64,000 nucleotides of DNA from Qipengyuania gaetbuli (GTDB lineage Bacteria > Pseudomonadota > Alphaproteobacteria > Sphingomonadales > Sphingomonadaceae). The notes under the pieces were generated by a model. The model was not told where the DNA came from. It saw nothing but the letters and a program-made list of their open reading frames with translations, and did no database searches. The stretch spans positions 62,001-126,000 of the forward strand of contig NZ_JAIVLR010000002.1 of assembly GCF_020524765.1 (NCBI RefSeq), given 5' to 3'. The stretch's first letter is position 1; every line of letters starts with the position of its first letter. This document shows, in pieces, positions 6,723-21,453 of this stretch. Both the position numbers and the translations under genes were made by a program.

Positions 6723-7625
6723 ATGCGTTACCTGCTTGCCGCTGCCGCCATCGCGATCGCAGCGCCTGCCGCCGCCCACAATCACGGACAGGGCGAACAC
6801 AAGAGCGAACATGGGGGCCATCACGGCCAGCACGACATGGCCGAGCATGTCAAAGACACCGCCATGTTCATGAAGCACCACGGCGAAGCGCTGTCGGGTG
6901 CCATCAACCATCCGACCCGTGCAGAAGACCGCAAGCGCGACCAGTTCCGCCACCCGGCCGAAACGCTCGCCTTCTTCCACGTCGGCCCGCACATGAAGGT
7001 GGGTGAATACGCGCCCGGCGGCGGCTGGTACTCGCGCCTGCTCGGCCACTATCTCGGCGGCGAGGGCAAGCTGGTCGGTATCTATGCCAACCCGCTCAAT
7101 GCTGCTGCCGATGCAGAGCGGCAGGACCGCATCCGCGCTGCCGCTGCCGGCTTCGGCGCCGAAGTGGCGGGTTACACCGGACTTCCCGCCGACAACTTCT
7201 CGGGCATGACGCTGGAGACGATCCCCGATGACCAGAAGGGCACCTTCGATCGTATCCTGGTGATCCGCGGTCTCCACGGCATCACGCGCACGGGCATTGC
7301 CGACACCGAGATGCGGGCGATGCGCGAACTGCTCAAGGATGACGGCTACCTCGGCATTGTCCAGCACCGCGCGAAGGCAGATGCGCCGTGGTCCTATGCG
7401 AATGGCACCAAGGGCTACTTGCGCCAGCAGGACGTGATCGATTTCATGCGCCTCAACGGCTTCGAGCTCGTCGCTGCGAGCGAGATCAACGCCAATCCGA
7501 ACGATACCGCCGACCATGAAGGCGGCGTGTGGGAAATGCCGCCTGTCCAGAGCACCAAGCGCGCCGACCTCGCCGACAAGGGCGAAAGCGACCGTATGAC
7601 GCTTCTCTTCAAGAAGCGGCCCTGA
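6723..7625 (+). CDS. Exported class I SAM-dependent methyltransferase-like protein with His-rich N-terminus
   Basis: 300 residues. Residues 1-18 form a clean signal peptide (MRYLLAAAAIAIAAPAAA), so the product should be exported. The mature N-terminus is unusually histidine-rich (about residues 19-45, with repeated HG, EH and HH pairs). The body resembles the COG4798-type predicted methyltransferases: a motif I-like GEYAPGGGWYSRLL (about 98-111) and RILVIRGLHG further on. A periplasmic SAM-dependent enzyme is odd because no SAM pool is expected there, so the fold may have another role, possibly metal-related given the histidines. GAAGGAG at 6709-6715 precedes the ATG. Confidence 0.75.
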   Translation: MRYLLAAAAIAIAAPAAAHNHGQGEHKSEHGGHHGQHDMAEHVKDTAMFMKHHGEALSGAINHPTRAEDRKRDQFRHPAETLAFFHVGPHMKVGEYAPGGGWYSRLLGHYLGGEGKLVGIYANPLNAAADAERQDRIRAAAAGFGAEVAGYTGLPADNFSGMTLETIPDDQKGTFDRILVIRGLHGITRTGIADTEMRAMRELLKDDGYLGIVQHRAKADAPWSYANGTKGYLRQQDVIDFMRLNGFELVAASEINANPNDTADHEGGVWEMPPVQSTKRADLADKGESDRMTLLFKKRP

Positions 7626-7633
7626 GACCCGGC

Positions 7634-8509
7634 ATGCGCGAACTGACCGTCGCAGTCCTCCAGCTTACCCTCGCCCGAAAGGACGAGAGCGAGAACGTGG
7701 CCGCAGTGGCCGCCCTCGTGGAGGAGGCGGCGGGCAGGGGCGCGCAGGTCATCCTGCCGCCCGAGCTGTTTTCGGGCGAATATTTCTGTCGCGAGGAGGA
7801 CGAGGCACTGTTCAGCCTCGCCCGTCCGACGGCAGAGCACCCCTCGGTGCTCGCCATGCAGGAACTGGCAGCGAAACATTCGGTGGCGATCCCGACCAGC
7901 TTTTTCGAGCGGGACGGGCACCACTATTACAACACGCTCGCCATGATCGGGCCCGACGGCGCGATCATGGGGACCTATCGTAAGAGCCACATTCCCGACG
8001 GTCCGGGTTACGAGGAAAAGTACTATTTCCGCCCCGGGAACGACGGTTTCAAAGTCTGGGACGTGCCCTGCACGGGTGGCACCGCGCGCATCGGGATCGG
8101 CATTTGCTGGGACCAGTGGTATCCCGAATGCGCCCGCGTGATGGCGCTGAAGGGTGCCGAAGTGCTGTTCTACCCGACGGCCATCGGTTCCGAACCCTAT
8201 GACGCCGATCTCGATACCAGCCGGATGTGGCGCCGCGCCATGATCGGGCACGCAGTCTCGAACTGCATGCCTGTCGCGGCTGCCAACCGCATCGGCCATG
8301 AAGGTCCAGCCGACCGGCAGCAGAGCTTCTACGGCCACAGCTTCATCTCCGACGAATGGGGCGACCTCGTCGAAGAATACGGGCGCGAGGAAACCGGAGT
8401 GCTGGTGACCACGCTCGACCTCGACCGTGCCGCCACGCACCGCGCGGGGATGGGCTTCTTCCGCGACCGCCGCCCGCAGCTCTACGGCAGGATCTGCGAG
8501 GACAGCTGA
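7634..8509 (+). CDS. aguB: N-carbamoylputrescine amidase
   Basis: 291 residues of the nitrilase/CN-hydrolase superfamily. The catalytic triad is visible: Glu44 in PPELFSG, Lys117 in YRKSHIPDG and Cys158 in GICWDQW. The GEYFC and GPGYEEKYYFRPG segments are typical of the AguB clade, which hydrolyses N-carbamoylputrescine to putrescine, CO2 and ammonia in the agmatine route. The usual partner agmatine deiminase (aguA) is not adjacent. The gene starts eight bases after the methyltransferase stop and is followed two bases later by a small unknown gene, so the three are probably one transcript. Confidence 0.88.
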   Translation: MRELTVAVLQLTLARKDESENVAAVAALVEEAAGRGAQVILPPELFSGEYFCREEDEALFSLARPTAEHPSVLAMQELAAKHSVAIPTSFFERDGHHYYNTLAMIGPDGAIMGTYRKSHIPDGPGYEEKYYFRPGNDGFKVWDVPCTGGTARIGIGICWDQWYPECARVMALKGAEVLFYPTAIGSEPYDADLDTSRMWRRAMIGHAVSNCMPVAAANRIGHEGPADRQQSFYGHSFISDEWGDLVEEYGREETGVLVTTLDLDRAATHRAGMGFFRDRRPQLYGRICEDS

Positions 8510-8511
8510 CG

Positions 8512-8940
8512 GTGACCGGCACCGGCGGAGGGATCGACCAGGGCCAGCTGGACCAGCTGTTCACTGCCGCGCTCGAAGCCGGAATCGCGCGGATCGAGAA
8601 AGACGGGCACTTTTTCCCGCTCGTCTTCGAACTGCGGTCCAACGGGGTGATCCACAATGTCGCCGTCCTCGACGCGGCACCGATCAGCGGGAGCGAGGGC
8701 GTACTCGGCCGGCTGTCCGACCTTCTGCGCAGCCGGGCGCAGGACGGCCTCATTCGCGCCGCCGCCATCGTCAGGCATTGCACGGAGACGGCCCGGCTGT
8801 TCGTCCAGCTGAGAGCGCCGAACTACAGCCAGGACGTGGAAGTGCCCTTTGCGCTTTCCTCCGAAGGCCTCATCCGGCGTCGCCGCCGCCTGTCGCTGGG
8901 AGAATTCACCTCAAGCCCGGCAGAGAACACGATCTTCTAG
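8512..8940 (+). CDS. Small conserved-looking hypothetical protein
   Basis: 142 residues beginning at GTG 8512, two bases after the aguB stop. The protein is acidic in its first half and arginine-rich near the end (IRRRRRL). It contains no cysteine cluster, signal peptide or membrane segment that I can see, and I do not recognise the family. Its stop codon overlaps by two bases the stop of the convergent M20 peptidase gene. Tight spacing to aguB suggests translational coupling. Confidence 0.55.
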   Translation: MTGTGGGIDQGQLDQLFTAALEAGIARIEKDGHFFPLVFELRSNGVIHNVAVLDAAPISGSEGVLGRLSDLLRSRAQDGLIRAAAIVRHCTETARLFVQLRAPNYSQDVEVPFALSSEGLIRRRRRLSLGEFTSSPAENTIF

Positions 8941-10352
8941 CTGCCGGCGAGTTCCTTCAGGATAATCGTCCAGTGGTCGAGCCCTGCATAGAAGGCATCG
9001 ACCCGCATCCGTTCGTTGAGGCCGTGGGCGTAGATGTCCTGCGGCCTGCTCGCGCCTGCACCGATGGCGACGGTGTCATAGCCGAGCGTGCGGTAATGCA
9101 TGCCGTCCGTGCCGCCCGACGACATGTGCGGCAGCATCGGGATGGGCTTGCCGAAGCGTGCGACGAGCGCCTTGGACAGGGCATCGCGAACCTCGTCCGG
9201 AAACTCGCTGACGCCGCTTTCGGTCGCTTCGGCGCGCTGGACGATGGCGATCTCGGGATTGCCGATCGCTGCGGCGAGCTGGGCCTTCACATTGTCGACC
9301 CCGTCACCCGGGAAGACGCGGCAATTGACTGCCGCGCTGGCCGATTGGGGGAGCGCGTTCTGGGCATGCCCGCCCTTCAGCATGGTCGCCACGCAGGTGG
9401 TGCCGAGCGTGCCCACCAGGCTCGGATCGGCGCGGATGATCTCGATGGCCGAGGCATCCGACGGGTCGGCAGCGAAGCGTTTCAGTGCCTCGCCAAGCTC
9501 GCCGGGCATGCTCTGGCCGAGCGCGCCGAGATAGGTGCGGGTCAGCTGCGTATCGCGCACGGGGAACCGGTATTCGGCGATTTTCAGCAGTGCCGCGGCC
9601 AGGTCGTAGATCGCGTTGTCGCTGCGCGGGCGGGAAGAATGGCCGCCCTGGTTGGTCGCGGTCAGGTCGAAAGTGACGTAGGTCTTCTCGGCCATTTGGA
9701 CTTGCTGGGCGAGCGGCGAGAAATCGTCGGCCAGCCCGATGCCGCCGGCGTCCGAATTGAGGACGTAGGCAGGGTCCACGTTTTCCGCGATCCATTTCGC
9801 TTGCGCGCGGGTCGAGACCATGCCCGTCTCCTCGTCTCCCGAGAACACGAGATAGAGATCGCGGTTCGGCGTCCAGCCTTCCTCCTTCAACCGGATGAAG
9901 GTGCTCGTGAGGTTCATCACCCCGTATTTGTTGTCCTGCGTGCCGCGCGCGTAGAAATAGCCGTCGGCCTCGGTCAGGGTGAAGGGATCGCGCTCCCAGT
10001 CCTCGGGCAGGGCATCGACCACGTCCATATGGGCGAGCAGCGCGATCGGCTTTTCACCCGAGGATCCATCGCCGCGATACCGTACGATCAGGCCCTGCGT
10101 GGGATCGCCTTCGCTGTCGTAGTCGGTGACCATGATGTCCCCGGCAGCAAAGCCTGCTTTCGACAGGCGGCCTGCGAGATAGGCGACCATGTCGTCCACC
10201 TGACCGTGCCCGCGAGCGGTGCGGAAGGCGATGATGTCGCGGTAGATTTCGTAGCTGCGCTGCTCATGCGCACTGCGTTCATGCCCGTCCGCTGCAAGCG
10301 GCGCCGCGCCTGCCAGCAACGCGAAGCCGATGGCTGCCCCGATCCCCTTCAT
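8937..10352 (-). CDS. Exported M20 family metallopeptidase
   Basis: 471 residues with a signal peptide at residues 1-21 (hydrophobic core AAIGFALLAGAAPLAA). Zinc ligands and catalytic residues of the M20 fold are present: LLAHMDVV (His108, Asp110), GTQDNKYG (Asp140), SGDEETG (Glu174 catalytic, Glu175) and a C-terminal SSGGTDGMH. The dimerisation-domain marker GGHSSRP is also present. It is likely a periplasmic amino- or carboxypeptidase acting on short peptides, in keeping with the TonB-receptor-rich, peptide-scavenging lifestyle of this group; the substrate is not shown. The ATG at 10352 was chosen because it begins the signal peptide and has GGGAGAT upstream; the open frame extends further but without signal-like sequence. 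Confidence 0.9.
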   Translation of the reverse strand: MKGIGAAIGFALLAGAAPLAADGHERSAHEQRSYEIYRDIIAFRTARGHGQVDDMVAYLAGRLSKAGFAAGDIMVTDYDSEGDPTQGLIVRYRGDGSSGEKPIALLAHMDVVDALPEDWERDPFTLTEADGYFYARGTQDNKYGVMNLTSTFIRLKEEGWTPNRDLYLVFSGDEETGMVSTRAQAKWIAENVDPAYVLNSDAGGIGLADDFSPLAQQVQMAEKTYVTFDLTATNQGGHSSRPRSDNAIYDLAAALLKIAEYRFPVRDTQLTRTYLGALGQSMPGELGEALKRFAADPSDASAIEIIRADPSLVGTLGTTCVATMLKGGHAQNALPQSASAAVNCRVFPGDGVDNVKAQLAAAIGNPEIAIVQRAEATESGVSEFPDEVRDALSKALVARFGKPIPMLPHMSSGGTDGMHYRTLGYDTVAIGAGASRPQDIYAHGLNERMRVDAFYAGLDHWTIILKELAGS

Positions 10353-11421: not shown

Positions 11422-11535
11422 CCCCGTCCCTTCCTTGTCGCGGCCCCGTGCCAAACTAAATTGCCGGGCTGCCCGAAAGCAACCCAAACCACGCTTGACC
11501 ACCCGCCATCGCATGCCTAGGTGCCCCTCGTGGTC

Positions 11536-11611
11536 GGGCCCTTAGCTCAGTCGGTAGAGCAACTGACTTTTAATCAGTAGGTCGCTGGTTCGAACCCAGC
11601 AGGGCTCACCA
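11536..11611 (+). tRNA. tRNA-Lys(TTT)
   Basis: A 76-base cloverleaf with an encoded CCA end. The acceptor GGGCCCT pairs with AGGGCTC (one G-T wobble), the D arm reads GCTCAGTCGGTAGAGC, the anticodon stem ACTGA/TCAGT encloses loop CTTTTAA with anticodon TTT, and the T arm contains GGTTCGAACC. Confidence 0.97.
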
Positions 11612-11620
11612 CCTTTTCCC

Positions 11621-12430
11621 TCAGGATTGTCCGGCAGAACACGCAATCAGCGTGCGCGCCGCCGTGCCGAATTCGACCTCGTCGATGTTCGATGCCATTG
11701 CGCTCGACCCGGGCGCTATGCGCGCGTCCGACACCGCGACATCTCCGGAAAGCGGCAAGACCTGCATCGGGCCCTGCAACCGGCCGAGCATGTCCGCCGA
11801 AGGCTCTCCATGGAGCTGGAACAGGCGGAAGTGCGGACCGTCCACCAGCACCGCTTCCGCATCGGGCGCCACCTTCCGGTGCAATCCCGCAGGATAGGGC
11901 TTGCCGGAAGCCACTGCGATGGCTGCATCCAGATGCAGTTCTCGCGGGCGGTCATAGTCGTAAAGGCGATAAGTGATGTCGGTGTTCTGCTGCACTTCGA
12001 GCAGCGTCAGTCCTTGCCCGATCGCATGAACCGTCCCGGCCGGGATGTAAAAGAAGTCGCCCGGCTCGACCGTCCGCCATTCGAGCAGGTCCTCGATTGA
12101 TCCGTCGAGCGCAGCAGCGCGCATGGCTTCGGCATCGAGCGACTGCGTGAAGCCCATCGCCAGCCTTGCACCCGGCTCTGCAGCCAGGATCAGCCAGCAT
12201 TCCTCCTTGCCGCGGCCGGTCGGGCTGGCGGCACCGGAAGGGTGCACCTGGACCGAGAGCTTTTCGCTGGTGAAGAGATATTTGACGAGAACGTCCGGCA
12301 TCGCATCGGACGGCTCGAACCAGATTTCCCCGATCCGCTCTGCGTCTCCGGGAAGTGCGAAGGGTGGCGGCAAGGGGCTGCGACCCCAGACCTTTTCCAC
12401 CCGCTTGGTCGGCAAGATCCGGGAGTTCAT
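11621..12430 (-). CDS. manA: Mannose-6-phosphate isomerase, class I
   Basis: 269 residues of the cupin-type isomerase family, shorter than the E. coli enzyme but usual for the alphaproteobacterial form. Recognisable elements are KPWG-like KVWGR near the N-terminus, VKYLFTSEKLSVQVHPS (zinc ligands), GKEECWLIL, GDFFYIPAGTVHAIG and LLEVQQNTDITYRLYDYDR. It interconverts fructose-6-phosphate and mannose-6-phosphate. Its ATG overlaps the manC stop (ATGA at 12427-12430), so the two are translationally coupled. It reads toward the end of tRNA-Lys, leaving nine bases. Confidence 0.9.
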   Translation of the reverse strand: MNSRILPTKRVEKVWGRSPLPPPFALPGDAERIGEIWFEPSDAMPDVLVKYLFTSEKLSVQVHPSGAASPTGRGKEECWLILAAEPGARLAMGFTQSLDAEAMRAAALDGSIEDLLEWRTVEPGDFFYIPAGTVHAIGQGLTLLEVQQNTDITYRLYDYDRPRELHLDAAIAVASGKPYPAGLHRKVAPDAEAVLVDGPHFRLFQLHGEPSADMLGRLQGPMQVLPLSGDVAVSDARIAPGSSAMASNIDEVEFGTAARTLIACSAGQS

Positions 12431-13452
12431 TGATTGGCGGCCCCGTCCAGCTTGCCGACGCTCTGCGCATGGTCGCGCGAGAGGACGAGGATTTCGTCGC
12501 CATCGACGACCACGATCACGTCGCTCAGGCCGACGATGGACACGCGCGGGCCATCGGTGTCGACCATCACGCCGCGGCAACCCATGGCTTCGGTTCGGCC
12601 CGACAGGACATTGCCGTCTTCGTCCGCCTGGCGAGCTTCCATCAACGCGCTCCAGTCGCCGATATCGGACCAGCCGATATCCGCCGACACGACAGCAGCG
12701 TGCGAGGTGTTTTCCATTACCGCGAAGTCGACGCTTTCCCCGGCGATGCGCGCAAATGCAGCCGCCTCGGGATCGAAACGCGAACCGTCCCATTCACCTG
12801 ATGCAACCGAAGCTTCGACCGCTTCGGCCATTTCGGGGCGATAGGTCTCAAGCTCGTCGAGCAACCTTCCCGCCGGAAAGGCGAAGATGCCGCCGTTCCA
12901 GACGAAGCCCCCGTCATCAAGGAACTGCTGCGCGCGCTCGAGGTCGGGTTTTTCGACGAACCGTTCGATCCGGTGTCCAGCCCCGACGGTCTGGCCGCGC
13001 TTGATGTAGCCGTATCCGGTGGCCGGACGGTCGGGTGCGATGCCGAAGGAGACGAGGTAACCCTCCCGCGCGAGCGAGGCGGCGGTGCGCACTCCGTCGA
13101 GGAAGGCGGCCTCATCGGCGATGTGGTGGTCGCTCGGGCAGACGAGCATCACCGCATCGCGGGGAAGCAGCCGTGCCGCCAGCGCGATTGCAGGGGCGGT
13201 ATTCTTGGCCGCCGGTTCGACGACCAGGCGGTGCTCGCCGGCCTGTTCTGCGATGAAGCTGGTGTGCGCCTCTCCGGCTACCACGATCGGGGCCTCGAAA
13301 AGCCCGGAATCCGATACGCGGTCCAGCGCCTGCTGGAACAGGGTCCGGTCGCCCAAGAGCGGAAGGAAAGGTTTCGGCTTCACGCGGCGGCTGCGCGGCC
13401 AGAGGCGCGTCCCGCTGCCGCCGCAAAGGATAACTGGATAGACCTTTGTCAT
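12427..13452 (-). CDS. manC: Mannose-1-phosphate guanylyltransferase
   Basis: 341 residues: a nucleotidyltransferase of the GMP type. The N-terminal VILCGGSGTRLWPRS loop binds GTP, and FxPKPFLPLLGDR-like KPKPFLPLLGDRTLFQQ, VCPSDHHIADE, PATGYGYIKRG, FVEKPD, WNGGIFAF and DIGWSDIGDW are family hallmarks. It makes GDP-mannose. The C-terminal isomerase domain of bifunctional type II enzymes is absent; that function is supplied by the coupled manA. The ATG at 13452 places the GGSG loop at the usual distance from the N-terminus; an upstream extension to 13491 is not needed. Confidence 0.92.
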   Translation of the reverse strand: MTKVYPVILCGGSGTRLWPRSRRVKPKPFLPLLGDRTLFQQALDRVSDSGLFEAPIVVAGEAHTSFIAEQAGEHRLVVEPAAKNTAPAIALAARLLPRDAVMLVCPSDHHIADEAAFLDGVRTAASLAREGYLVSFGIAPDRPATGYGYIKRGQTVGAGHRIERFVEKPDLERAQQFLDDGGFVWNGGIFAFPAGRLLDELETYRPEMAEAVEASVASGEWDGSRFDPEAAAFARIAGESVDFAVMENTSHAAVVSADIGWSDIGDWSALMEARQADEDGNVLSGRTEAMGCRGVMVDTDGPRVSIVGLSDVIVVVDGDEILVLSRDHAQSVGKLDGAANQ

Positions 13453-13534: not shown

Positions 13535-14110
13535 ATGAACGCTCCGCGCCTGTCCGTTTTCGCCCGCCTGCCCGTGCCCGGAAAGGTCAAGACGCGGCTG
13601 ATCCCCGCTCTCGGGGAAGAGGGGGCGGCACGCCTCTATGCGCGCCTTCTGGCCCATACGGTCGAGGTTGCGAAAGCGAGCGGCCTGGAATTCGAGCTGC
13701 GGGTGACAGGGGGCGAGGAAGCAGCGTTTCACGAACTCTTCGGCGCCGATGTGAGCGTCGTCGACCAGGGCGAGGGCGATCTGGGGGCGCGGATGGCAGG
13801 CGTGGCTGCGCCCTGCCTCATCATCGGGAGCGACTGTCCGGCCATCTCCGTGCCGCTCCTGCAAGCGGCGGCAGGTGCGCTGGCGGACCGCAAGGTGGTG
13901 CTCGGTCCCGCCAATGACGGGGGCTACTACCTCGTGGGGCTGGCCGAGCCGATGCCTTTCCTGTTCGAGGCGATGGAGTGGAGCACGCCGCAGGTCCTGC
14001 CGCAAACGCTCGCGCGGCTGGCAGAGCGCCGGATCGGCCCTGCGATCCTGCCCGAACTGGCTGACATCGATACGGCAGAAGACCTCGCCGCCTGGCCCGA
14101 ATTCCAATGA
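13535..14110 (+). CDS. TIGR04282-type transferase (DUF2064)
   Basis: 191 residues. The opening SVFARLPVPGKVKTRLIPALG, then LIIGSDCPAIS, and LGPANDGGYYLVGL with W-x-TPQVL mark the DUF2064 family, a glycosyltransferase-A-like fold described as rSAM/selenodomain-associated transferase 1. Its biochemical role is unknown. It overlaps the next gene by four bases (ATGA at 14107-14110), and the pair is part of a candidate cluster with SDR, flavoprotein and radical SAM genes. The ATG at 13535 is preceded by ACGAGACAGCG, a weak ribosome site. Confidence 0.85.
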   Translation: MNAPRLSVFARLPVPGKVKTRLIPALGEEGAARLYARLLAHTVEVAKASGLEFELRVTGGEEAAFHELFGADVSVVDQGEGDLGARMAGVAAPCLIIGSDCPAISVPLLQAAAGALADRKVVLGPANDGGYYLVGLAEPMPFLFEAMEWSTPQVLPQTLARLAERRIGPAILPELADIDTAEDLAAWPEFQ

Positions 14111-14829
14111 GCGTTACGCTGCTGGTTCCTGCGCTGGACGAGGAAAAGGCGCTGCCCAAGCTGGTGGAGCGGCTCGCCAGCCTCGATCCCGCGCCTGCCG
14201 AGATCATGCTGGTGGACGGCGGCAGCAGCGATGCGACGGTCGCCATCGCGCGCGATGCGGGATGGCGCATTCTCGAGACGGCGCGGGGCAGGGCGCTCCA
14301 GATCAACGCCGGGGTAGAGGACGCGCGCGGGGAGATCGTCTGCGTCCTCCATGCAGACACCTTGCCGCCGACCGACATGGTGCGAGTGATCGAGGACGCG
14401 ATGCAAGACCGGCGCACCGCGCTTGCCAGTTTCAGCCCCGTCATCCGCGGGCCAGAACGAACGCGCTGGGGGACGACGCTGCATAATTGGGCCAAGACCT
14501 GGTACGCGCCGCTCATCACGCGCCCGCACCTCTTCTTTCGCGGTGTGCGCCTGCTGTTCGGCGACCATGCCATGTTCTTCCGCCGCGCCGATTTCCTCCG
14601 CGTCGGCGGGTGCACGCCGGGCGATGCGGTGATGGAGGAAGCCGATCTGTGCGTGAAGCTGGCGCGGCTGGGCTGGGTGCGGATGCTGCCGCAGCGGGTC
14701 TACACTTCCGACCGGCGGATTGCCGAATGGGGCGCGCTCAAGGCGAACTGGATCTATTTCAAGGTCGGCATGCTCTGGGCCTTCGGCCTGCGCAGCCGGA
14801 TGGCAAAGCACTATCCCGACGTGCGCTAG
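14107..14829 (+). CDS. TIGR04283-type family 2 glycosyltransferase
   Basis: 240 residues with the GT2 start LLVPALDEEKALPKLVERL, the nucleotide-sugar-binding VDGGSSDAT and LHADTLPP (DxD-like), and a C-terminal LFGDHAMFFRRADFLRVGG with EEADLCVKLARLG. This corresponds to the family described as rSAM/selenodomain-associated transferase 2, also annotated as arsenosugar biosynthesis glycosyltransferase; whether arsenic is involved here cannot be told. Translation is coupled to the upstream transferase through an ATGA overlap. It converges with the SDR gene, with a four-base overlap at the stops. Confidence 0.87.
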   Translation: MSVTLLVPALDEEKALPKLVERLASLDPAPAEIMLVDGGSSDATVAIARDAGWRILETARGRALQINAGVEDARGEIVCVLHADTLPPTDMVRVIEDAMQDRRTALASFSPVIRGPERTRWGTTLHNWAKTWYAPLITRPHLFFRGVRLLFGDHAMFFRRADFLRVGGCTPGDAVMEEADLCVKLARLGWVRMLPQRVYTSDRRIAEWGALKANWIYFKVGMLWAFGLRSRMAKHYPDVR

Positions 14830-15839
14830 GCGTCGGCCAGGAAGCCCACGGCAATGCAATGGTCGATGAGGCGCCGGATGTAGTCCTCGCCCGTCACTGC
14901 GCATTCGATGCCTGTCACTTCGCGAAAGCGCGTGTCCGAGAAATGCGGGTCGCGCTGGAAATAGCTCGCGTAAAGCCCAGCCACCCGCTTGAACAAGCGC
15001 CGCTCCAGCGCGGGGAGCAAGGCGGGATCGAAGCGCTCGGGGGCGACAAGTTCGGGTTCGTGGAAGTGCGGGTAGCCGCCGATTGCCCCGGTGAAACGTT
15101 CCACCGGTAGCGGCTGGCCGGAGACGAGATGATAGGTGCCGCCGGCTGCCTCGTCCATGCGTTCGGCCAGCGCGACAATGCCAGCCGCCACGTGGTCGAT
15201 CGGCACGAAGTCGAGCGTCGCGCCCGGGCGGGCAGGCATGTGCCGCACGCGCCCTTCGGCAATCAGCTTGAAGGCTGCATAGGTGGTGTCGAACTGGCGG
15301 ATGGCGCCGTCCCCATGCGCGCCCACCACGATCGAAGGGCGGCCGATCGCCCATCTGGCAGTGCTTTGCCGGACGAGCCGCTCGCCCGCAGCCTTGCTGG
15401 CTTCGTAACCATTGGCAAAGCCGTCCTCTGGCAGGGCATCGTCCTCCGCGATCGGCCCGTTGCGCGTCCCGCAGACATAGGCCGTCGAGACGTGCAGGAA
15501 GCCCATGCCGCCGGCCTCCGCCAGCTCCAGCGCATGGCGCACGCCATCGACATTGGCAGCGCGGTAATCCTCTTCTTCAAGGTCGAAGCGCACGCTGGCA
15601 GCGCAGTGCACGACCAGGTCGTGCGCGTCCGCCAGCCCGGCGAAACGCTCGGGGGACAGGCCCAGGCGCGCTTGCGAGATGTCGCCCTTCACAGTGGGGA
15701 TGTCGACAGCGGCGCCGTCGTTCGCGCGCACTTCCGGATTGCGGTGGACGAGGCCGGTCACCTCGTGGCCGCGCGCGAGCAGCCTCGCGCAGATCTCGCC
15801 GCCCACCAGTCCGGCAGCCCCCGTCACCAGCACCTTCAC
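14826..15839 (-). CDS. Extended SDR family NAD(P)-dependent oxidoreductase/epimerase
   Basis: 337 residues from GTG 15839. The Rossmann loop TGAAGLVGG lies at residues 6-14 and the catalytic YEASK follows the serine-containing HVSTAYVCG strand by the usual distance. The C-terminal half has the GGTYHLVSGQP pattern of substrate domains in sugar epimerases and fatty acyl reductase-like SDRs. The start was chosen because the upstream residues in the open frame (to 15923) are not Rossmann-like and the GTG is directly followed by KVLVTGAAG. It is transcribed divergently from the flavoprotein gene and toward the glycosyltransferase pair. Confidence 0.85.
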   Translation of the reverse strand: MKVLVTGAAGLVGGEICARLLARGHEVTGLVHRNPEVRANDGAAVDIPTVKGDISQARLGLSPERFAGLADAHDLVVHCAASVRFDLEEEDYRAANVDGVRHALELAEAGGMGFLHVSTAYVCGTRNGPIAEDDALPEDGFANGYEASKAAGERLVRQSTARWAIGRPSIVVGAHGDGAIRQFDTTYAAFKLIAEGRVRHMPARPGATLDFVPIDHVAAGIVALAERMDEAAGGTYHLVSGQPLPVERFTGAIGGYPHFHEPELVAPERFDPALLPALERRLFKRVAGLYASYFQRDPHFSDTRFREVTGIECAVTGEDYIRRLIDHCIAVGFLADA

Positions 15840-15943
15840 GCGGCGCGCCTTTGCGTCATGTAACCGATGGGACCTGTCCGTCGAAGGGGCGGGGGAATTC
15901 GATAGAGTTCGCATCTTGAGCAATTTCGGTTACGGGACAAGCG

Positions 15944-17359
15944 ATGAAATTCACCCATGACGTAATCGTGATCGGCGGCGGGGCCGCAGGACTTGTCGCT
16001 GCCGGCGGCTGCGCGCTCTTCGGCCTCGAAGTCGCCCTGATCGAGGGGCGCAAGATGGGCGGCGAGTGCCTGAACGATGGCTGCGTGCCGTCGAAAGCGC
16101 TGATTACGGCAGCGAAACGTGCGGCAGAGGCGCGGGAAGCCACGCGCTACGGGGTGACGCTCGATCAGCCAAAGGTCGACTGGCTCGGCGTGCGCCAGCA
16201 CATTCGCGATGCCATCGCCGCGATCGAGCCGCACGACAGCGAAGAGCGGTTCGAGGAAATGGGCTGCGAGGTCATCCGCGACTGGGCGAAAGTCACCGGT
16301 CCCCAGTCGGTCGAGGTTGGCGGAAGGACCCTGCGCGCACCGCGCATCGTCATCGCCACCGGCTCGAAGCCGGCCATCCCGCCGATCGAGGGCGTGGAAA
16401 ATGTCCCCTATCTCACCAATGAGACCATCTTCGACATCGAAGCACTGCCCGATCACCTCGTGATCGTCGGCGGCGGGGTGATCGGCATGGAAATGGCGCA
16501 GGCCTTCCGCCGTCTCGGCAGCGCCGTCACCGTGGTCGAGCCGGACGAGCTGATGGCCCGTGACGACCGCGAGAGCGTGGCGCTGGTGCGCGAAGTGATG
16601 GAGTGCGAGGGCGTCCGCTTCGTCAAGGGGCTCGCCAGCAAGGTCGAGGGCCGCGAAGGCGCTGTCCGCCTGCATGTCGGCGAGGAGGTTATCGACGGAT
16701 CGCATCTGCTGATCGCCACCGGCCGCAAGGCCCGGTGCGAAGGCTTCGGCCTGGAAGACATCGGCGTGAAGATGGGCCGCGGCGGTATCGTGACCGACGC
16801 ACGCCGCCGCACCTCCGTGAAAGGCATCTACGCTATCGGCGACTGCCGCGACGGGCCGCGCCTGACCCACGTGTCGGGCTACGAAGGCTCCAACGTCGCC
16901 CTCGAAATCACCCTCGGCCTGCCCGCCAAGGTAGATTATTCGGCTTTGCCCTGGTGCACCTATACCGAGCCGGAAGTTGCCCAGATCGGCCTGACCGAAC
17001 AGGAAGCACGCGAGAAATTCGGCGAGAAGCTGCGGGTCGTCACCGAAAGCTTCCACGACAACGAACGCGCGCTGACCGAAGGCAATGACAAGGGCCAGGC
17101 GAAGGTGATGCTCAAGGGCACCAAGGTCGTCGGCGCCAGCCTGGTGGGCAAGAATGTCGGCGAATTGCTGCTGCCCTACACGCAGACGATCACCGGCAAG
17201 AGCAGCACCTTCGCGCTAGGCTCGGCGGTCATCGCCTATCCCACCCGCAGCGAGATCACCAAGGCGACTGCCTTTGCCGCATGGGAGCCGACCGTGTTCG
17301 GGCCGCTGCCGAAGAAATGGGCCGGGTTCCTTGCCCAGATGAGGCGGCGGTTTTCGTGA
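15944..17359 (+). CDS. Mercuric reductase-like pyridine nucleotide-disulfide oxidoreductase
   Basis: 471 residues. FAD-binding VIGGGAAGLVAA (about 9-20), the redox disulfide ECLNDGCVPSK (Cys42 and Cys47), NAD-binding VIVGGGVIGMEMA, and the second FAD motif YAIGDC are all present. The interface segment reads SAVIAYPTRSEITK, with Tyr where lipoamide dehydrogenases carry the catalytic His-Pro, as in the mercuric-reductase-like branch. There are no extra N-terminal or C-terminal cysteine pairs for Hg(II), so mercury reduction is unlikely. The stop overlaps the GTG start of the radical SAM gene (GTGA at 17356-17359), showing tight coupling between the two. Confidence 0.88.
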   Translation: MKFTHDVIVIGGGAAGLVAAGGCALFGLEVALIEGRKMGGECLNDGCVPSKALITAAKRAAEAREATRYGVTLDQPKVDWLGVRQHIRDAIAAIEPHDSEERFEEMGCEVIRDWAKVTGPQSVEVGGRTLRAPRIVIATGSKPAIPPIEGVENVPYLTNETIFDIEALPDHLVIVGGGVIGMEMAQAFRRLGSAVTVVEPDELMARDDRESVALVREVMECEGVRFVKGLASKVEGREGAVRLHVGEEVIDGSHLLIATGRKARCEGFGLEDIGVKMGRGGIVTDARRRTSVKGIYAIGDCRDGPRLTHVSGYEGSNVALEITLGLPAKVDYSALPWCTYTEPEVAQIGLTEQEAREKFGEKLRVVTESFHDNERALTEGNDKGQAKVMLKGTKVVGASLVGKNVGELLLPYTQTITGKSSTFALGSAVIAYPTRSEITKATAFAAWEPTVFGPLPKKWAGFLAQMRRRFS

Positions 17360-18342
17360 ACGCGCGTTCGGCTTCCCGCAACGCACCGGCTGGCCCGTCG
17401 CCCTTCGCGGTCGAGGCGGCAGCACTTCCGCGCGAAAAATTCGCAGATCCAGCCATCACGGCCAAGGGTGAGCCGCGCGCGAGCGTGCCGCTGGTCCGGC
17501 TCGATACGCTGTGGCTCAACACCGGCACGCTGTGCAATCTGGCCTGCGCCACATGCTACATCGAAAGCAGCCCGACCAATGATGCGCTGGTCTATCTGCG
17601 TAGCCACGATGCGGGCCGCTTCCTCGATGAAGCGGCAAGCATGGGGACCCGCGAGATCGGCTTCACAGGTGGCGAGCCTTTCATGAACCCCGATATGCTC
17701 GCGATGCTGGAGGACTGCCTTGCGCGCGGATTCGAGGTCCTGGTCCTGACCAATGCCATGCGGCCGATGCGCAGGCACGAGCGCGCGCTGCTCACCTTGC
17801 GCGAAAGGTTCGGCGAGCGGCTGACCCTGCGTGTGAGCCTCGACCACCATTCGCGGCCCGTCCACGAGGCGGAGCGGGGTGCCAACAGCTGGGTTCCCGC
17901 GATGGACGGGCTGCGCTGGCTGTCGGACCATGGCTTTTCGATCGCCGTTGCCGGACGCCTCTTGCCGGGCGAGGGCGAGCAGGAGGCGCGCCGCGCCTAT
18001 GCCGCGCTGTTCGCTGCCGAAGGGATCGCAATCGATGCACATGACCCTGTGCGGCTGGTGCTGTTTCCCGAAATGGACGCAGGCAAGGACATCGCGGAGA
18101 TCACCACCGCGTGCTGGGACATTCTCGGCAAGTCACCTTCCGACATCATGTGCGCATCGAGCCGCATGGTCGTGCACCGCAAGGGCGAGCCGGGCCCACG
18201 CGTCGCGGCCTGCACGCTCATTCCCTATGACGCGGGGTTCGACCTCGGTGCAACGCTGGCAGAGGCGAGCGGAGAGGTGGCCCTGAACCACCCGCATTGC
18301 GCGCGCTTCTGCGTGCTGGGCGGGGCCAGCTGCTCGGCCTAG
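17356..18342 (+). CDS. Radical SAM protein with C-terminal cysteine cluster
   Basis: 328 residues from GTG 17356. The 4Fe-4S/SAM motif is CNLACATC (Cys60, Cys64, Cys67), followed by FTGGEPFMNPD, the GGE motif. The C-terminal part contains five further cysteines (266, 286, 315, 319, 326) in an arrangement suggesting an auxiliary cluster. It does not match a radical SAM subfamily I can name with certainty. The start overlaps the stop of the flavoprotein gene, so the two products are probably made together; the flavoprotein could be a redox partner. It converges with the transporter gene with a four-base overlap. Confidence 0.85.
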   Translation: MNARSASRNAPAGPSPFAVEAAALPREKFADPAITAKGEPRASVPLVRLDTLWLNTGTLCNLACATCYIESSPTNDALVYLRSHDAGRFLDEAASMGTREIGFTGGEPFMNPDMLAMLEDCLARGFEVLVLTNAMRPMRRHERALLTLRERFGERLTLRVSLDHHSRPVHEAERGANSWVPAMDGLRWLSDHGFSIAVAGRLLPGEGEQEARRAYAALFAAEGIAIDAHDPVRLVLFPEMDAGKDIAEITTACWDILGKSPSDIMCASSRMVVHRKGEPGPRVAACTLIPYDAGFDLGATLAEASGEVALNHPHCARFCVLGGASCSA

Positions 18343-19034
18343 GCGCGTTTGCGGCTGTCCAGCCACTTCGCCAGCGCGACGCCGCCCGTGATGAGGAAGG
18401 GCACCAGCACGATGCTGAGCGTCACCTTGGCGATGACCTGTCCGATGAGGAGGTTGGTGATCGGGAACTGGCCGTAGAAGGCCAGCGTGATGAAGATCAC
18501 CGAATCGATTGCCTGGCTCAGCGCCGACGCGACCGCGCCGCGTGCCATCAGTGAAAACGCGCCGCCGCCTTCGGCATTGCCGCGCAGGCGCGAGAAGATC
18601 CACACGTTGAGCAGCAGCGAGACGATGTAGGCCGCAGGTCCGGCCGCCCAGACGCGCCAGATCGTCGCATGGACCCGCTCGAACGCCGCCAGGTCCTCTG
18701 CCCGTCCGCCGATCATTTCGGGCGATGCGGGAAGGTTCAGCACGAGCTGCATCAGCAAGCCGGAAATCAGCAGCGGGACGAACCCGAACCACACGATCCG
18801 GTTGGCGAGTTTTTCTCCGTAGAGCTGGGCGATGGTGCTGGAAATCACCACCAGCAAGAGGAAGGCGAAGATGCCCGATTCCACCGCGAGGTCGGTCGGC
18901 CACAGCTGCACCTGCTTGAACGCGAGCACGCCCGCGAGCACGGTCATGCCCCCGTAGAGCAGGATATAGACGAACAGGCCGAGCGGCATGGCAGCTGCGG
19001 CAAGGCGGGTTTCGTTGGCCGGGCTTTCGGTCAT
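18339..19034 (-). CDS. VUT family queuosine precursor transporter (YhhQ-like)
   Basis: 231 residues with about six hydrophobic segments. The charged, polar YGEKLANRIVWFG and the SALSQAIDSVIFITLAF segment are characteristic of the VUT/YhhQ (DUF165) family, which takes up queuine precursors such as preQ0/preQ1 for tRNA modification. The ATG at 19034 is preferred to the in-frame TTG at 19049. No queuosine biosynthesis gene is adjacent. Confidence 0.85.
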   Translation of the reverse strand: MTESPANETRLAAAAMPLGLFVYILLYGGMTVLAGVLAFKQVQLWPTDLAVESGIFAFLLLVVISSTIAQLYGEKLANRIVWFGFVPLLISGLLMQLVLNLPASPEMIGGRAEDLAAFERVHATIWRVWAAGPAAYIVSLLLNVWIFSRLRGNAEGGGAFSLMARGAVASALSQAIDSVIFITLAFYGQFPITNLLIGQVIAKVTLSIVLVPFLITGGVALAKWLDSRKRA

Positions 19035-19168
19035 GACGGGGTAGGACAATCTTTCAAACTGGTGACAGCGCGCGCTGGCGGAGGGCGCAGAAATTGACTA
19101 AGCGGACCCGCCGCGCAAGGTAGCGGCTGATTTCATCCGCAACTTGTCGCATCGCGAAGGGGTCCGCA

Positions 19169-20497
19169 ATGCCGCCTTTCATTGTCAATATCGCCGGTAT
19201 CCTCGCGATCCTCCTGATCGCCTTCCTGCTGTCCACCGGCAAGCGCCGCATCAAGCTGCGTGTCGTGGGTGCGGCTTTCGCATTGCAGGCCCTGATGGCG
19301 CTGCTCGTCCTGCGCACGCCCTGGGGTGTCGAGGCGATCCTGGCGATGTCGAACGGCGTCATTGCCCTGCTCGACTATTCCAAGGCCGGTATCACCGCGA
19401 TCTTCGGTCCGATGGAAGGCAATCCCTTCACCAATACCTTCGTGATCGCCGCCCTGCCGGTGATCATCTTCTTCGCCGCGCTCGTCTCGATCCTCTACCA
19501 CTGGGGCATCATGCAGCGGCTGGTGCGCTGGGTCGGCGGTGCGATCGGCTGGATTACGGGCATCTCCAAGGTCGAGGCGCTCGGCAGCGCGGCCAATATC
19601 TTCGTCGGCCAGTCGGAAAGCCCGCTGGTCGTGCGCCCCTATCTCGCAGCGCTCACGCCCAGCCGCCTGTTCACCCTGATGAGCGTCGGCATGGCCGGCG
19701 TGGCGGGCACGATCCTGGCTGCATACGCCAGCTTCATCGGCGCAGAAGCCGTGCCGTTCCTGCTGGCAGCCGCCTTCATGTCGGCACCCGGCGGTATCCT
19801 GATGGCCAAGATCATCATGCCCGACGACGAGAGCGATCTCGCGCGTGACGCGGCCGAGATGGCCGAGGTCAAGCTGCCTGATGCCCGCATCAGCGGCGAC
19901 GGGCCGGCGGCGCTCACCGAAAGCGGCAAACCGCACGAGGTCGAGGTGGCCGAGACTTTCGAGGAAGGCCACAAGCCTGCCAATGTCATCGAGGCAGCGG
20001 CCCAAGGCACCCAGACCGGCGTGAAGCTGGCGGTTGCCGTCGGCGCCATGGTCATGGTCTTCGTTGCGCTGGTCGCGCTCGCCAACGGCATACTCGGCGG
20101 CATCGGCGGCTGGTTCGGCTATCCCGACATCAGCTTCCAGCAGCTGCTCGGCTATGTATTCGCGCCGGTCATGTACCTCATCGGCATTCCGTGGGAGCAG
20201 GCCGGCGCTGCCGGCGGGCTGTTCGGCACCAAGATCGTGCTCAACGAATTCGTCGCCTTCATCGAACTGGGCGCCATGGACGCGGCTGTCCTTACCGAAC
20301 GCAGCCGGGCGATCATCACTTTCGCGCTCTGCGGCTTTGCGAATTTCAGCTCGATCGCCATCCAGATGGCGGTGACGGGCGGCCTTGCGCCAAATCAAAG
20401 ACCGGTCATCGCCAAGCTCGGTATCCGCGCCCTGGCTGCCGGTAGCCTCGCCAACCTGATGAGCGCGGCACTGGCGGGACTCTTCCTACCGTATTAA
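19169..20497 (+). CDS. NupC-type concentrative nucleoside transporter
   Basis: 442 residues with about ten membrane segments. The family signatures are VFVGQSESPLVVRPYL (read as IFVGQSESPLVVRPYL), the MSAPGGILMAKI hairpin region, GTKIVLNEFVAF and CGFANFSSIAIQMA. These belong to CNT transporters, which import nucleosides with Na+ or H+. A charged cytoplasmic-type loop between about 220 and 280 (DDESDLARDAAEMAEV and following) is longer than in E. coli NupC. GAAGGGG precedes the ATG. The dioxygenase gene follows after 14 bases. Confidence 0.92.
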   Translation: MPPFIVNIAGILAILLIAFLLSTGKRRIKLRVVGAAFALQALMALLVLRTPWGVEAILAMSNGVIALLDYSKAGITAIFGPMEGNPFTNTFVIAALPVIIFFAALVSILYHWGIMQRLVRWVGGAIGWITGISKVEALGSAANIFVGQSESPLVVRPYLAALTPSRLFTLMSVGMAGVAGTILAAYASFIGAEAVPFLLAAAFMSAPGGILMAKIIMPDDESDLARDAAEMAEVKLPDARISGDGPAALTESGKPHEVEVAETFEEGHKPANVIEAAAQGTQTGVKLAVAVGAMVMVFVALVALANGILGGIGGWFGYPDISFQQLLGYVFAPVMYLIGIPWEQAGAAGGLFGTKIVLNEFVAFIELGAMDAAVLTERSRAIITFALCGFANFSSIAIQMAVTGGLAPNQRPVIAKLGIRALAAGSLANLMSAALAGLFLPY

Positions 20498-20511
20498 GGG
20501 CCGCTTCCATT

Positions 20512-21453
20512 ATGACCGATTCCAACACCGATATCGCGGTTGTGTCGCTGGCACAGCCGCTCGAAAACATCGCCGACGAGCTTGGCCGCAGCTTCCAGGA
20601 ATACGGCTTTGCCGTAATTCGCGACCATGGCATCCCGCAGGAACTGATCGACCGCGCCGAAGCGCTGTCGAAGGAATTCTTCGCGCTGCCGGACGAAGCC
20701 AAGCGCGCCTACCACATCCCGGGCGGGGGCGGCGCACGCGGCTACACGCCGTTCGGGACCGAGAAGGCCAAGGACGCCAAGGTCCACGACCTCAAGGAAT
20801 TCTGGCACGTCGGGCGCGAACTTCCCGAAGGGCACGAGCTGGCCGAATACATGGCCGCCAATGTCTGGCCGGACGAGGTCGACGGTTTCCGCGAGACCTT
20901 CACCGAACTCTACACGGCCTTCGAGGAAGCCGGCGGCCGCGTGCTGGAGGCGATCGCGCTCCATCTCGGCCTGCCGCGCGAGTTCTTCGCCGCCACCGTC
21001 AAGGACGGCAATTCGGTCATGCGCCTGCTGCGCTACCCGCCGCTCGAAGGCGCGGAAGCCGAAGGAGCCATCCGTGCCGCAGCGCATGGCGACATCAACA
21101 CGATCACGCTGCTGCTGGGCGCGGAAGAGGCCGGTCTCGAACTGCTGACCAAGCAGGATGAATGGAAGGCCGTGGACGTGCCGGAAGGCGCGCTGGTCAT
21201 CAATGTCGGCGACATGCTCGACCGGCTGACCAACGGCAAGCTGCGTTCGACCACGCACCGCGTCGTAAATCCGCGCGGCGAGGCGGCATATCGGGCGCGC
21301 TATTCCATGCCCTTCTTCCTGCACTTCCGCCCGGACTACACGATCGAGACGCTGGAAAGCTGCATCGATCCGGCGCGTCCGGACGACCATCCGGCGCCGA
21401 TTTCCAGCCACGATTTCCTGCTGCAGCGCCTGCGCGAGATCAATCTCGCCTGA
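20512..21453 (+). CDS. Isopenicillin N synthase family 2-oxoglutarate/Fe(II) dioxygenase
   Basis: 313 residues. The Fe(II) facial triad is His192 and Asp194 in AAHGDINTITLLL and His249 in THRVVNP; 2-oxoglutarate binding is provided by the RARYSMPFF arginine/serine. The N-terminal DIOX_N domain shows YGFAVIRDHGIP. The family oxidises small molecules; the actual substrate is unknown. It follows the nucleoside transporter closely, so a link to purine or nucleoside catabolism is possible but speculative. A GC-rich hairpin without a T tract follows the stop (21469-21496). Confidence 0.88.
   Translation: MTDSNTDIAVVSLAQPLENIADELGRSFQEYGFAVIRDHGIPQELIDRAEALSKEFFALPDEAKRAYHIPGGGGARGYTPFGTEKAKDAKVHDLKEFWHVGRELPEGHELAEYMAANVWPDEVDGFRETFTELYTAFEEAGGRVLEAIALHLGLPREFFAATVKDGNSVMRLLRYPPLEGAEAEGAIRAAAHGDINTITLLLGAEEAGLELLTKQDEWKAVDVPEGALVINVGDMLDRLTNGKLRSTTHRVVNPRGEAAYRARYSMPFFLHFRPDYTIETLESCIDPARPDDHPAPISSHDFLLQRLREINLA

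Follow-up and report, generated by a model that had tools for sequence, protein, structure and literature searches.

A 64,000-nucleotide stretch of the Qipengyuania gaetbuli genome (GCF_020524765.1, contig NZ_JAIVLR010000002.1), hereafter the window, whose positions are used for all gene coordinates, contains five genes that were examined here as a biosynthetic cluster around a radical S-adenosylmethionine enzyme (rSAM). The cluster starts on the forward strand with a TIGR04282 (DUF2064) transferase that resembles CofC-like nucleotidyltransferases (13535-14110; NCBIfam, PF09837), followed through an ATGA overlap by a TIGR04283-like family-2 glycosyltransferase (GT2; 14107-14829; PF00535). An extended short-chain dehydrogenase/reductase (SDR) of the Male sterility/thioester-reductase type (14826-15839; PF07993, 147 bits) lies on the reverse strand, convergent with the transferases; its start was taken as the GTG at 15839, and its 3' end overlaps the GT2 gene by 4 bp. 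Beyond a gap of about 105 bp (15840-15943), and again on the forward strand, a flavin adenine dinucleotide (FAD)-dependent disulfide oxidoreductase of the MerA/Lpd/glutathione-reductase superfamily (15944-17359; PF07992, 207 bits, and PF02852) is joined by a GTGA overlap to the rSAM gene (17356-18342, forward strand; PF04055, 63 bits). The GTG of this overlap was taken as the rSAM start; an in-frame ATG lies upstream at 17281. The positions, the two overlaps, and the opposite orientation of the SDR, all given by an earlier reading of the letters alone (the sequence-only reading), were confirmed. That reading had counted five extra C-terminal cysteines in the rSAM; there are six (C253, C266, C286, C315, C319, and C326) in addition to the core CxxxCxxC (C60, C64, and C67), and the six were invariant in all 32 aligned sequences, whose identity to the enzyme of the window went down to 33%.

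The TIGR04282 transferase scored 190.1 bits against its family model, above the cut-off of 134, and 40 bits against the CofC model (cut-off, 105); a solved relative is 3cgx, a "putative nucleotide-diphospho-sugar transferase" (62 bits). For the GT2, TIGR04283 was clearly the best of 14 NCBIfam families, the score of 166.7 bits just missing the cut-off of 182. The flavoprotein, in which the redox pair is CLNDGC (CxxxxC), had mercuric reductase 5x1y as its closest solved relative (217 bits) and scored 312.9 bits against the mercuric reductase model MerA TIGR02053, below the cut-off of 454.

Among 296 genomes from the order Sphingomonadales, 83 had a relative of the rSAM (E 1e-20), and the window's own family accounts for 48 of these. 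Gene order was counted at 46 family loci; the 2 family rSAM genomes outside this count were G287, in which the rSAM stands alone (locus L058), and G182. All five genes occurred together, in one order and orientation, at 39 of the 46 loci, and because of this synteny the cluster is more than a chance association, as the sequence-only reading had proposed in treating the five genes as one linked unit. The SDR was present at 42 of the 46 loci, and its position next to the rSAM was observed chiefly in this family. At most of the loci examined from the order's other families, the rSAM stood without the other cluster genes. Even when unlinked, the rSAM and the two transferases co-occurred: TIGR04282 (E 1e-20) was present in 81 of 83 rSAM genomes versus 8 of 213 rSAM-less genomes of the order, and TIGR04283 in 80 of 83 versus 7 of 213. 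The latter tally excluded ten matches of 75 to 93 bits, all in rSAM-less genomes, which if counted would give 17 of 213; one of them (in G219) is a partial TIGR04283 gene adjoining TIGR04282, and the other nine were taken for other GT2 proteins. Hypergeometric values for these associations ignore kinship, and the argument therefore rests on contrasts such as that within the window's genus, where 15 of 24 genomes carried the rSAM with both transferases and the other 9 had neither the rSAM nor TIGR04282. Through named rSAM loci, a set of 80 that are the best among at least 581, 26 genomes were sought and 25 were analysed (at least 3 of which were also in the order survey), their titles being those of Alpha-, Beta-, and Gammaproteobacteria and one Enemella. 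TIGR04282 was present in all 25 (24 over the cut-off), and in 16 of them the TIGR04282 profile had no match in the stretch around the rSAM.

At the site of the gap between the SDR and flavoprotein genes, 22 of the 46 family loci carry a gene for a methyltransferase of about 350 amino acids, which was found anywhere in the locus in 25 of 46. Against 5evj, an arsenite methyltransferase of solved structure, the copy at locus L096 scored 351 bits, and the four cysteines in DAC, YGCG, NCVINL, and GECL were aligned; the NCBIfam list for the methyltransferase was headed by arsenite-methyltransferase models, at scores below their cut-offs. Judged by these similarities, the methyltransferase of the relatives' clusters is ArsM. 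Among the 39 five-gene loci, the gap measured 71 to 159 bp in the 18 loci without ArsM, as it does in the window, versus 747 to 1226 bp in the 21 with it. Long-form ArsM (E 1e-30) was present in 48 genomes of the order, 47 of which carry the rSAM. When ArsM presence was mapped onto a tree built from three of the cluster proteins (LG+G4 without a mixture model; 41 rows), 8 changes were required, and well-supported branches force at least 5 of these. A count of changes alone does not tell gain from loss; repeated loss of ArsM is the simplest reading, because 22 of the 25 ArsM genes stood at one site, where loci without ArsM have a gap of 71 to 159 bp. In the joint alignment of TIGR04283, flavoprotein, and rSAM sequences, no column separated loci with ArsM from those without. 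A specificity signature for ArsM presence was rejected, with a best mutual information of 0.374 set against shuffled maxima of 0.284 on average and 0.438 at most, from shuffles that ignore kinship. Comparison of the window with three ArsM-less relatives shows purifying selection on the five genes, the ratios of nonsynonymous to synonymous substitution (dN/dS) being 0.05 to 0.26, with synonymous sites near saturation in two.

ArsS adenosylates arsenic (PMC12159101) and acts together with ArsM (PMC8552651). In the parts of these two papers drawn on here, enzymes are assigned to the first arsenosugar steps only (ArsM and ArsS), and for the later steps we found in those parts no enzyme assignment beyond the NCBIfam naming of two transferase families. 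In 150 genomes drawn from the phylum, the ArsS model TIGR04167 matched in 74 at E 1e-40 (72 over the cut-off), none of which is labelled as belonging to the window's class, and 20 of these canonical ArsS loci were examined with profiles trained on the window's bacterial family. Two of them proved close to the cluster in their partners. At L170, ArsS is followed by a TVP38-flavoprotein fusion, TIGR04283, TIGR04282, DUF3047, ArsM (588 bits), and a solute-binding protein, with a 5'-methylthioadenosine phosphorylase (MTAP) gene divergent; at L158, the order is phosphorylase, ArsS, TVP38, flavoprotein, TIGR04283, and TIGR04282, with ArsM elsewhere in the genome (G415). Among the tracked genes, MTAP likewise came next after the rSAM at 15 of the 46 family loci; it is present in the window's genome as one unlinked copy, and TVP38, DUF547, and DUF3047 genes accompany both kinds of rSAM. 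The likeness to the ArsS/ArsM arsenosugar pathway of cyanobacteria (SsArsM and SsArsS) thus extends, at L170, L158, and other loci, to TIGR04282, TIGR04283, a MerA-like flavoprotein, TVP38, DUF547/DUF3047, MTAP, and ArsM.

The two radical SAM enzymes are of similar length, and in hhalign the profile of the rSAM aligned with that of 21 canonical ArsS sequences over 262 columns (probability, 98.9; E 2e-17), including the C-terminal H-C-x2-3-C...S-C. They differ in that the rSAM of the window scores far below the ArsS cut-off and has no match to DUF3641 (PF12345) at E 0.01, a domain present in the canonical ArsS of L170 (188 bits); the SDR is an addition to the ArsS/ArsM system, and ArsM is missing in this strain. 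A search of 32 genomes, of which 20 carry the rSAM, and of the window's genome gave no ArsS over the cut-off.

We read the cluster, with a probability of roughly 0.6, as a biosynthetic unit of the arsenosugar type, with ArsS replaced by an uncharacterised rSAM family, a reading whose product and chemistry we infer. Conservation, co-occurrence, the partners shared with canonical ArsS at two loci, ArsM in the relatives' clusters, and purifying selection are observed and speak for it. In such a pathway, ArsM would supply the methylated arsenic in roughly half of the relatives, the window's strain having to draw on another source, and the MerA-like flavoprotein would keep this arsenic trivalent and supply reducing power. 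The rSAM, by analogy with ArsS, would add a 5'-deoxyadenosyl radical to As(III) to form a carbon-arsenic (C-As) bond, after which MTAP would remove adenine to leave 5-deoxy-5-arseno-ribose-1-phosphate. The CofC-like TIGR04282 protein could then convert the modified sugar-1-phosphate into a nucleotide sugar, from which the TIGR04283 GT2 would transfer the arsenosugar, with glycerol or a lipid headgroup as acceptor. Methylated arsenic would have to reach the strain of the window from outside; alternatively, its substrate could be unmethylated arsenite, or not arsenic at all.

Several observations weigh against this reading. By the curated test the rSAM is not ArsS: it scored 53.4 bits against TIGR04167 (cut-off, 300), and the best score genome-wide was 53.7. 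Its best NCBIfam family is Rv1681 (NF049973), at 105.1 bits. The rSAM core matched a single ArsS at E 2e-14, hardly better than the genome's own MoaA (9e-13) and a second MoaA (7e-10); homology alone was therefore rejected as proof of ArsS function, and an ArsS-like role is argued from genomic context. An AlphaFold2 model of the rSAM (predicted local distance difference test score, 91) had BlsE (Z 19.3), SkfB (18.9), SuiB (18.6), viperin (about 16.7), and MoaA (16.4) in the top rows of a fold search, which places the predicted structure among SPASM/twitch and viperin-like rSAM enzymes; as a guide to substrate the search was uninformative, ArsS being absent from the rows shown, which excludes nothing. 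ArsM is missing from the window's genome, which had no long-form match at 1e-30 and a best arsenite-methyltransferase model match of 47.6 bits. Of the order's 83 rSAM genomes, 36 had no long ArsM, and at least 2 of these 36 (G015 and G021) have another ArsM-like gene; no ArsM was found at E 1e-25 in 15 of the 25 genomes from named loci. Among the 20 canonical ArsS loci, the flavoprotein was present in 8, ArsM in 4, TIGR04282 in only 3, and the phosphorylase in 2, low counts that perhaps come from profiles trained on one bacterial family. MTAP also matched in 10 of 14 control genomes, so that its presence is not specific. Eight genomes (G013, G031, G032, G051, G219, G227, G246, and G281) have TIGR04282 (over the cut-off in six) without the rSAM, with TIGR04283 over 130 bits in six, and none of the eight has an ArsS over the cut-off; decaying pathways or a third rSAM are candidate readings of these genomes, and in G013 an unassigned rSAM scored 46 bits to TIGR04167. 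The SDR could tailor the product as the last step of the proposed pathway, a role that is a guess. Finally, every chemical step, above all the adenosylation of arsenic by the rSAM, is one that we infer.

The sequence-only reading had offered arsenosugar-like chemistry as one possibility. It is strengthened by the ArsM gene inside the cluster at 22 of the 46 family loci and by the partners shared with two ArsS loci; on the other side, the rSAM is distinct from ArsS, this genome lacks ArsM, and the product is conjectural. With these corrections, the earlier interpretation is supported as right in direction, and a conserved arsenosugar-type cluster with a substitute rSAM and, in this strain, no ArsM may be viewed as a variant of a known system. 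The rSAM would be a new candidate for C-As bond formation, and co-occurrence yields a short list for the later arsenosugar steps, namely, the phosphorylase, the CofC-like nucleotidyltransferase, the GT2, and the flavoprotein. A bolder proposal, which we make tentatively and would not back at even odds, is that the rSAM represents a second arsenosugar synthase family ("ArsS2") in Alphaproteobacteria and others, and that recurrent loss of ArsM marks scavengers, which would take up dimethylarsinate released by neighbours, some of them via a PhnCDE-like importer encoded in the cluster, and fix it in arsenosugars. If the main reading of the cluster is right, searches for ArsS would miss the arsenosugar capacity of Alphaproteobacteria, and ArsM-free clusters would point to community-level handling of methylated arsenic. 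Among the matches listed in a search of open-licence literature, there was no report of another rSAM replacing ArsS.

The absence of ArsM from so many rSAM genomes (36 of 83 for the long form, and 15 of 25 from named loci) would be explained if the rSAM-transferase core made an arsenic-free adenosine-derived sugar, with a group based on phosphorus, sulfur, or selenium, for instance, and if ArsM had been recruited into some clusters for a side branch. Such a product would also fit the Phn-type genes adjoining the rSAM, which are those of a PhnCDE-like importer in L235 and PhnD/PhnE-like in L217, L223, and L231. We nevertheless consider it unlikely, as long ArsM is nearly confined to rSAM genomes (47 of 48), the same accessory genes surround canonical ArsS, and the lack of any alignment column that splits clusters with and without ArsM means that the enzymes do not look retuned. 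Less probable still is that the rSAM is a SPASM-like tailoring enzyme acting on a peptide or sugar, the C-As bond not being its work. Its nearest folds do include the maturases SkfB and SuiB of ribosomally synthesized and posttranslationally modified peptides and the sugar-acting BlsE and DesII, and six C-terminal cysteines would suit auxiliary clusters; however, the tested genomes have no ArsS over the cut-off to form the C-As bond instead, and no small conserved precursor gene was seen among the shared neighbours, a weak point, since only open reading frames of at least 50 or at least 80 amino acids were examined. That the synteny is an inherited neighbourhood without common function is very improbable, for although the flanking queuosine-precursor-type transporter (QueT), NupC, and 2-oxoglutarate (2OG) oxygenase genes are also kept within the genus, the flanks vary between genera while the five genes persist, and co-occurrence persists beyond the family, where the genes are mostly unlinked, which contradicts it.

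Besides the ArsS/ArsM system, two others invite comparison with the proposed arsenosugar-type unit. The arsinothricin cluster arsQML of Burkholderia gladioli likewise combines an rSAM with ArsM, and its rSAM makes a C-As bond; in the part of PMC8552651 that describes it, it is a three-gene cluster without transferases, flavoprotein, or phosphorylase. The Rv1681 family, the best-scoring NCBIfam family of the rSAM, has a cut-off of 380 bits, far from reached here, and the match is limited to the core (residues 76 to 251 of the rSAM, P0005). In Aromatoleum, a predicted mobile island of 4.6 kb is described, in the part of PMC8801600 drawn on here, as containing a moaA-annotated gene and the TIGR04282 gene under the annotation fbiD; the former could encode an rSAM, either of the window's kind or of the ArsS kind.

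At locus L235 (Methylopila; 6758-9138), PhnD-, PhnE-, and PhnC-like genes and both transferases lie in an apparent operon beside the rSAM. PhnE scored over its cut-off (251 bits), and PhnD (181 bits) and PhnC (250 bits) scored below theirs; the PhnD-like protein matches a broader phosphate/phosphonate binding-protein model over its cut-off and weakly matches an NCBIfam solute-binding family named Rv1680 (25.7 bits). PhnD/PhnE-like genes also adjoin the rSAM in L217 (about 11514-13339) and in L223 and L231 (from about 10822). The genomes of L217 and L235, the two searched of the four with Phn-type genes, had no ArsM at 1e-25. These Phn-type genes possibly encode an arsenical importer.

Downstream of the cluster, the window carries genes for the QueT-type transporter, a NupC-type nucleoside transporter, and a 2OG-Fe(II) oxygenase (18339-21453), which follow the cluster at 15 loci, all in the window's genus. 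These three, together with DUF421 and DUF2147, were rejected as cluster members, their distribution following genera and not the cluster, and other recurrent neighbours of the rSAM in other classes were judged by eye to be local context and set aside. Two rSAM loci bear titles that look out of place, L203 (a Klebsiella pneumoniae metagenome-assembled genome) and L246 (Enemella evansiae), the latter with flanks common to Rhodobacteraceae loci; both contigs are possibly mislabelled or contaminated. A conserved metallophosphoesterase-like gene, so labelled by reading, lies within about 3 kb of the rSAM in L210, L213, L217, L219, L223, L231, L235, and L247 and is a further candidate member of the pathway.

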